This document shows positions 52,707-54,416 of a stretch of DNA of 64,000 bases, piece by piece. This stretch comes from Pleurocapsa minor GSE-CHR-MK 17-07R (GTDB lineage Bacteria; Chloroflexota; Anaerolineae; Aggregatilineales; Phototrophicaceae), in NCBI GenBank assembly GCA_019359125.1, contig JAHHHY010000009.1, positions 186,001 through 250,000 on the forward strand, written 5' to 3'. The position numbers and the translations under genes are program-made. The notes below the pieces were generated by a model, which worked only from the letters and a program-made list of their open reading frames with translations, was not told the origin of the DNA and did no database searches. Position 1 is the stretch's first letter; the number at the start of each line of letters is the position of its first letter.

Positions 52707-52749
52707 GGGTCTGGGTCTCGTTTTATGCACTGTGATTCATGATTGTTCC

Positions 52750-52774
52750 GGGGCAAGGCATGCCTTGCCCCTAC
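52750..52774. repeat. REP-like palindrome containing the RAYT stop codon
   Basis: GGGGCAAGGCATGCCTTGCCCCTAC. Confidence 0.85.
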
Positions 52775-53331
52775 GTGATTCCGTTGGTGTGATGCCTGCG
52801 TTCTTCATGCCGGGCCGGATTGGTGATGATGTACTGACGGCAATGGTTCAGGTCTCTTTCGTCACGGATGATGTGGTCATAATAACTGCGCTGCCACACC
52901 GGACCACCTTCGACATCACGCAGCATATTTATATGACGCGCGGTTGCCGATTTGAACGCGCCAATAACCGTCCCCAGGGAACCGGCCTGCGGCTTTCCAA
53001 ACCCTGCGGGCGCCTGGCGTAGGGGCAAGGCATGCCTTGCCCCTACATCCCGCGATCCGGATTCGGCCGCGCGGTGAAACATCAAAATACCATGCACATG
53101 GTTTGGCATCACGACGAACGCGTCAATCTCGACATGCGGAAAATGGCTCGGCAATGACATCCAACATGCCTTCGCAACGTCTCCAAACGCGTTCATATTT
53201 GCCACACCATCCACAATCTCCCCAAACAACACCTCTCGCGCATGCGTGCATATCGTCACAAAATATGCCCCGTCGCCCGCATAATCCCATCCGGCCAATC
53301 TGCCTGACCGGCGCGCTGTTTCACGCGTCAT
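52771..53331 (-). mobile_element. REP-associated tyrosine transposase (RAYT, TnpA_REP/Y1 HUH family)
   Basis: RRSGRLAGWDYAGDGAYFVTICTHAREVLFGEI, HUH motif in MPNHVHGILMF, catalytic-Tyr region WQRSYYDHIIRDERDLNHCRQYI. Confidence 0.92.
53019..53046. repeat. 28-bp perfect REP-like palindrome inside the RAYT ORF
   Basis: GTAGGGGCAAGGCATGCCTTGCCCCTAC, translated in frame as part of VGARHALPLRQ. Confidence 0.9.
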
Positions 53332-54416
53332 TCCTGCGCAGCACCCGGCTTCTGGCGGCGCAGGTCTTTCACCTTCGCCTGCAAGTCCTGAAAATACTCG
53401 CTCTCGGTGATCTGGCGCACTTCCTTCTCGCGCTTGGCCGAGTCGATCTGAATCTCGAGGCGGCGCACTTCCTGGCGCAGGCGCTGTTCACGGGCATACA
53501 TCTCCTGCAAGAGATGCTTGAAGTGACGCGCTGTCTGGCCGATTTCATCACCGCGCACCGCGATGCTGCTCACCGAAGCGATCTGGTCAGCGGTGGGCGA
53601 CCAACTCGCGTCGTCGGCAGCGCTGCGGGCCGTCCCCGCGATCTGCTCCATCGGCACGACCACGGCCACCTGTAACAGTGACCGCGCCGCCAGCATCAGC
53701 ACAAACAGCGTGACGCCAAACACCACCATCAGGATGGTCACCCAGGTCTGCGCCGTGCCCACCACATCGCTGGCCGGCACATACACCACCTGCGCGGCGA
53801 TGATTTCGCCCACCTGCCAGCCAAAGCCATTCTGCGATCCATAGGTGGCGATCAGGCTGGCGGGCGCCTGCTCTGGCGTGCTGTGGCAGGCCAGGCACGA
53901 GTCGCTGGTTACGCGCAGCGGGCGGGCGGTGTAAAACACTTCCACGCCGTCGCGCATGGTGAAGCCCGACATATTGGCATTGGCGACCGCGTCGGCGCGC
54001 ATCGCTTCCAGCAGCCCGAATTCAAACGCGTCGGCCATATCACGCGGATTGGTCGGGTTGCTGGCGGCCTCTTTGTAAAAGTACGATAAATACTGCGGCG
54101 AGGTGCGCCAGTGCTCGAATACCTCGCGGGCCGAATAGGCAGGCACGGTTTCCGCGATGAACGTTTCGGACGCGGCCAGTTCGTCGCTCAGCAGCGCGTT
54201 GATGCGGGTGCTGGTGTAGTGCCGCACCGAGTTCATCATCTCGATGGCGGCATCGGCCCGCAGGCGGCTGATGGCTGTCGCCTGGCCAAACATCATCTGC
54301 GACACGACCGCCCAGCAGGCGATGAAGCCGATGGCGGAAATCACCAGCAGCACGAGGGTGAATTTCCGCCTCAGCCGCATATCCCCCATCCAGCTGGCTA
54401 TGGATGTCCGTATCAT
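53328..54416 (-). CDS. membrane protein with DUF3365/Tll0287-like haem-binding sensor domain and HAMP/coiled coil
   Basis: CXXCH haem motif (SCLACHSTPE), flanking TM segments (LVLLVISAIGFIACWAVV, VTILMVVFGVTLFVLMLAA), C-terminal coiled coil. Confidence 0.8.
   Translation of the reverse strand: MIRTSIASWMGDMRLRRKFTLVLLVISAIGFIACWAVVSQMMFGQATAISRLRADAAIEMMNSVRHYTSTRINALLSDELAASETFIAETVPAYSAREVFEHWRTSPQYLSYFYKEAASNPTNPRDMADAFEFGLLEAMRADAVANANMSGFTMRDGVEVFYTARPLRVTSDSCLACHSTPEQAPASLIATYGSQNGFGWQVGEIIAAQVVYVPASDVVGTAQTWVTILMVVFGVTLFVLMLAARSLLQVAVVVPMEQIAGTARSAADDASWSPTADQIASVSSIAVRGDEIGQTARHFKHLLQEMYAREQRLRQEVRRLEIQIDSAKREKEVRQITESEYFQDLQAKVKDLRRQKPGAAQE

Follow-up and report, generated by a model that had tools for sequence, protein, structure and literature searches.

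The 64,000-nucleotide stretch of DNA analysed here (the window) carries a RAYT (TnpA_REP) gene with a perfect 28-bp palindrome inside its reading frame. We consider it likely, with a rough probability of 0.78, that this is a RAYT of group 4 (TnpA_Y1 subclass 2.4) that carries a copy of its own cognate REP in frame, and that this copy was tolerated and has been kept or restored as a substrate-like palindrome. The analysis adds evidence that the REP inside the gene is a cognate (predicted) substrate of the enzyme, that it is kept as DNA, and that it comes with a testable recognition code. The question bears on the recognition of a REP family by its RAYT and on why REPs persist, and the element provides an example of a DNA element that stays perfect within a protein-coding gene in several phyla.

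The RAYT gene and its two REP copies

As the sequence-only reading had proposed, the minus-strand open reading frame is identified by its sequence features as a RAYT with its catalytic residues present (Table 1). The features of RAYT membership, an HUH motif, a single catalytic Tyr in a Y...NP context and the WQ pair, were all found. The NCBIfam profile NF047646 (REP_Tyr_transpos) gave 76.2 bits (E 2e-21) against a cut-off of 80, with the match split in two stretches, and Pfam Y1_Tnp gave 23.5 bits (cut-off 23). An AF2 model was built from an alignment of the window RAYT with 62 homologues (the 63-sequence alignment of Table 1) and reached a mean pLDDT of 85. Its best fold match in the PDB was 4ER8, the structure of E. 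coli TnpA_REP in complex with a REP hairpin (E 3e-7, probability 1.00). The start of the gene overlaps the stop of an upstream Tll0287-like gene (53328-54416, minus) as ATGA at 53328-53331, and translation of the two genes may be coupled.

Table 1. Positions in the window of the RAYT gene, its motifs and its REP copies
Feature	Position	Strand	Description
RAYT / TnpA_REP gene	52771..53331	minus	186 aa; predicted HUH Y1 tyrosine transposase from profile scores and fold match
HUH motif, His78-Val79-His80	53092..53100	minus	both His residues invariant in the 63-sequence alignment
In-frame REP GTAGGGGCAAGGCATGCCTTGCCCCTAC, a perfect double-foot palindrome of 28 bp	53019..53046	none	encodes V96-R105 (VGARHALPLR), phase 0 (GTA GGG GCA ...)
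Helix alphaC (alpha3), residues 117-131	52939..52983	minus	residues 117, 118, 120, 121, 124, 125, 128 and 129 covary with the REP stem
Trp146-Gln147, conserved WQ of REP-associated TnpAs	52891..52896	minus	invariant in the 63-sequence alignment
YIITNP, catalytic Tyr167 with Asn171-Pro172	52816..52833	minus	Tyr167 and Asn171 invariant in the 63-sequence alignment
Second REP copy	52750..52774	none	exact over 25 bp, with a decayed far foot; the RAYT takes its TAG stop from the GTAG foot

Both palindromes described in the sequence-only reading, one inside the frame and one supplying the TAG stop, were recovered. The first is in frame and falls after the HUH motif and before the catalytic Tyr; its feet (GTAG...CTAC) fit the double-foot pattern GT[AG]G...C[TC]AC. 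None of 100 dinucleotide shuffles of the window contained a match. The second sits between the RAYT and the downstream metH gene and has TCC in place of GTA at its far foot (52747-52749), giving 3 mismatches over 28 bp. It would be the usual flanking REP of a REPtron. The 5' flank of the gene holds no REP copy, the best match there being 13/22.

The sequence-only reading had taken an in-gene REP copy to fall outside the standard description of RAYTs, and in this it was mistaken. In-frame REPs inside tnpA_REP genes, generally between HUH and Y, were published as a unique feature of subclass 2.4, which corresponds to RAYT group 4, by Quentin et al. 2018 (PMC6006769). The same study described double-foot REPs in this subclass, placed the variable loop away from the active site, and reported the insertions and their tolerance. 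The window gene shares with subclass 2.4 the in-frame REP between HUH and Y, the double-foot GTAG...CTAC, NHVH and WQ, and its HUH-Tyr distance is 87 as compared to a reported median of 88. It differs in carrying YIITNP where YIxNNP is listed, while the listed NH[IFV]H and WQ are both present. By its insertion and double foot, the window element appears to be another case of the subclass 2.4 in-gene REP.

Related arrangements are described in the available excerpts of Di Nocera et al. 2013 (PMC3733652), where REPs supply stop codons, the GTAG foot often giving the TAG of a flanking ORF, and where REPs also lie within other genes, with repair and replication genes among the targets. The GTAG REPs and REPtrons of those excerpts resemble the window in the stop-supplying foot and in the presence of REPs inside ORFs, but the target genes there are different ones. 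Rickettsia palindromic elements (RPE), as they appear in the same excerpts, are likewise palindromic DNA in frame in protein genes; unlike the window element, they are CGTC-tagged and occur in various unrelated genes, not in their own transposase gene.

Distribution of REP copies and in-loop palindromes

The expectation that the palindrome would be enriched elsewhere in the genome held. The 22-bp REP core occurs exactly 8 times in the 4.85-Mb genome, as compared to 0 occurrences of the backwards control, and the genome contains one further copy with a single mismatch and one compensated variant. Six of the 8 exact copies are outside the RAYT. These six and the compensated variant are apparently intergenic: Pfam matches nothing in the open frames that overlie them, except in one frame whose domain begins well after the REP. 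Among the exact copies and the compensated variant, the in-RAYT copy is the only one seen within a gene. At one locus (L005:1501-1751, G000 C17), two REP copies are 229 bp apart, and what looks like a further palindromic repeat, GGGCGGACCTGCGTGTCCGCCC, stands just ahead of the second. The genome also has a second RAYT-like gene (L010:1115-1582, G000 C16:1115-1582) of 155 aa, with a short loop after HUH and no palindrome.

RAYT homologues are present in 176 of the 397 genomes of the class (Anaerolineae). When 100 Anaerolineae genes with clear HUH and WQ motifs were searched for palindromes with arms of at least 9 bp, 65 had one between HUH and WQ (codon-shuffled mean 0.7), while the N-terminal parts of the same genes gave 0 and the C-terminal parts 3. 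A collection from Chloroflexota, Cyanobacteria, Nitrospirota, Deltaproteobacteria, Planctomycetota, Gemmatimonadota, other Proteobacteria and more gave in-loop palindromes in 59 of 77 genes (null 0.5), with few in other parts of these genes, a percentage that is not a survey figure since the set was chosen by similarity to the query alignment. The in-gene REP is not peculiar to this genome; it is widespread among RAYTs. A REP-like GTAGGG foot is the source of the stop codon in 17 of 175 genes.

When REPs were counted genome-wide with a loose pattern, background overwhelmed the count in several genomes. One Planctomycetota genome (G472, the genome of L197) has two REP types, with 7 and 5 exact copies. 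The L103 RAYT carries an extra stretch, HPFDNAQGR, after its start, possibly another in-frame repeat.

Conservation and persistence of the in-gene palindrome

The in-gene palindrome is conserved as DNA, not as peptide. Among 51 loops picked by their left foot only and having a paired right foot, an average of 4.94 of the inner 5 stem pairs were formed, as compared to 1.91 when right arms were shuffled; these loops contain 23 different stem sequences, in which both arms change together. Codon usage was examined separately in loops picked by peptide (VGA, then P at REP spacing). In the resulting VGA....P peptides, the Val codon is GTA in 65 of 68 cases and the Gly codon GGG in 67 of 68, while elsewhere in the same genes these codons account for 12% and 28%. 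Homologues encoding such residues with non-palindromic synonymous codons, which the sequence-only reading had named as contrary evidence, were sought, and this is not what the genes show. Two reading phases of the REP are used, 74 and 26 times, and the third, which reads TAG, is never used. Within the FG[KRHQ]P (FGKP) set, to which the window gene belongs, one and the same 28-mer is read as VGARHAVPL (L155, L163, L170) and as RGTACRAPT (L032, L162, L167). Finally, in the LGRLIGAFKTVS clade, which was defined by protein, an identical 28 bp is found in 6 of 8 genes and a variant with one compensated pair in one more. The six genes with the identical REP come from several phyla. They agree at 55-66% of core residues but at no more than 26% of 4-fold third positions, as expected by chance. 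No earlier report of the codon, phase or alphaC results was found in the literature searched, with most subscription journals and supplements lying outside the search, and these results go beyond what was found in the subclass 2.4 study (PMC6006769).

The in-gene REP is predicted to fall in a flexible loop on the protein surface, after the HUH strand and before helix alphaC; loop residues 91-110 have pLDDT values of 53-61 and no secondary structure in the model. The REP may have entered through the enzyme's own single-strand cleavage and rejoining. The loop would then have taken the extra residues in either of the two open phases, and the sequence-only reading's idea of a tolerated protein loop agrees with the position of the insertion in a tolerant variable loop. 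The palindrome would subsequently have been kept, or repeatedly restored, as a perfect substrate-like form, so that gene and cognate REP would travel together as a compact unit. A clean empty site was absent from the class, family and all-species collections, in which the closest homologues are ~54% identical.

When the positions of REP copies were compared with RAYT matches, the sole exact copy of the in-gene REP was at the RAYT in six genomes. With up to 3 mismatches allowed, further copies were present in each of the six genomes of the LGRLIGAFKTVS set. Because near-exact copies exist in the tested genomes, maintenance in place is inseparable from replacement, and the REP may persist either by selection in place or by renewal from such copies.

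It is also conceivable, though we regard it as unlikely, that the insertion is neutral: the enzyme acts near its own gene, and REPs landing there survive only when in frame in a floppy loop, where they do nothing. The low confidence and missing secondary structure of the modelled loop suit such a view, as do its description as peripheral (PMC6006769), the existence of decayed REPs, and the clade members that have no REP (L079, L222, L076). Against it, an identical 28 bp has been retained in genes whose 4-fold sites are randomised, changes in the arms are compensated throughout, and the REP persists in genomes that have no other exact copy of it.

Autoregulation, in which the transposase level would be limited by binding of the RAYT to its own gene or mRNA hairpin, or by slower translation through the hairpin, strikes us as improbable. 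The coding strand folds to a strong hairpin (z -3.1), and the palindrome stays perfect in many genes. However, non-Watson-Crick cells on the coding strand comprise 20 G.T and 30 A.C, so that G-U wobble is not in excess, pairing in RNA is apparently not selected, and an mRNA hairpin as the selected form is argued against; in addition, about one third of homologues have no in-gene palindrome.

That the palindrome is a by-product of codon choice, with the peptide being selected, can be dismissed despite the common VGA....P form, since one DNA is read in two phases as unrelated peptides, the Val and Gly codons are nearly fixed to GTA GGG here only, and the stem pairs covary. Chance or a codon effect as the origin of the palindromes is ruled out by the shuffles, the codon test and the phase test.

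REP stem and helix alphaC

Coevolution of RAYTs and REPs was reported by Nunvar et al. 2010 (PMC2817692). Here, a near-identical copy of the in-gene REP (at least 20/22) was found within the gene's own 1.5-kb flanks at 19 of 54 loci, as compared to 5 of 533 control comparisons. REP stem type also follows the protein tree, requiring 61 changes as compared to a shuffled mean of 80 (minimum 74). After overall core distance was removed, mismatch at the alphaC residues listed in Table 1 correlated with REP-stem mismatch at 0.24-0.48. The correlation was weaker at residue 130 (0.20) and near zero at alphaC residues 119, 122, 123 and 126 and, on average, over 101 other columns (alphaC versus other variable columns, p 2.5e-7). 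The spacing of the covarying residues corresponds to one face of the helix. When pairs of proteins less than 62% identical elsewhere were compared, the REP stem was shared (at most 1 apart) in 73% of pairs with alphaC faces at least 76% identical and in 1% of those with faces less than 26% identical.

Individual positions can be matched as well. At REP position 10, G124 occurs with A in 22 genes (0 with C), whereas R124 occurs with C in 37 and with A in 7. At REP position 9, T121 goes with A and A121 with G. The FGKP relatives mostly have ACGGC stems together with the alphaC face GSPTRASA or one close to it. The window gene has an AAGGC stem, one compensated pair away from ACGGC, and the face GSGTGASA, and its combination of AAGGC with G124 fits the pattern. 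The tree under the covariation is weakly resolved, and the well-supported independent contrasts, only 3-4 per test, lie nearly all in the expected direction while being too few for significance. The covariation is a strong lead, not proof.

The E. coli TnpA_REP (PDB 4ER8; subclass 2.2) shares with the window protein the fold, HUH, WQ and Y..NP, and its DNA-binding helix alpha3 contacts the REP stem, with K82 touching the stem bulge (PMC8266576). It differs in lacking the long loop that here separates the HUH strand from alphaC, and its REPs have a bulge in the stem. The helix alphaC is equated with alpha3 of the E. coli enzyme by position, as both come between the HUH and WQ strands, rather than by a residue-level alignment of the helices. 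Since the REP stem covaries with one face of alphaC, the helix taken to be the known DNA-binding one, it is very probable that the enzyme's own substrate is the REP inside its gene.

A stronger proposal, which we offer tentatively and hold to be somewhat doubtful, is that the in-gene REP is a functional, selected and protected copy of the substrate that travels with its enzyme, and that the covariation with the alphaC face amounts to a recognition code readable in genomes. Should the in-gene REP be the cognate substrate, every gene of this kind would give both an enzyme and its target, and the code of the DNA-binding helix could be read from genomes and tested by swaps of a few residues.

Exchange of REP and alphaC as a simple linked tract was considered and rejected: the signal declines towards 0 beyond residue 131 and returns at residues 59-64, across HUH. 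In a crude ungapped comparison, L050, L053, L063 and L028 were picked out as possible mosaic RAYTs, with the C-terminal segment of L050 being closest to L063 and its alphaC closest to L053.
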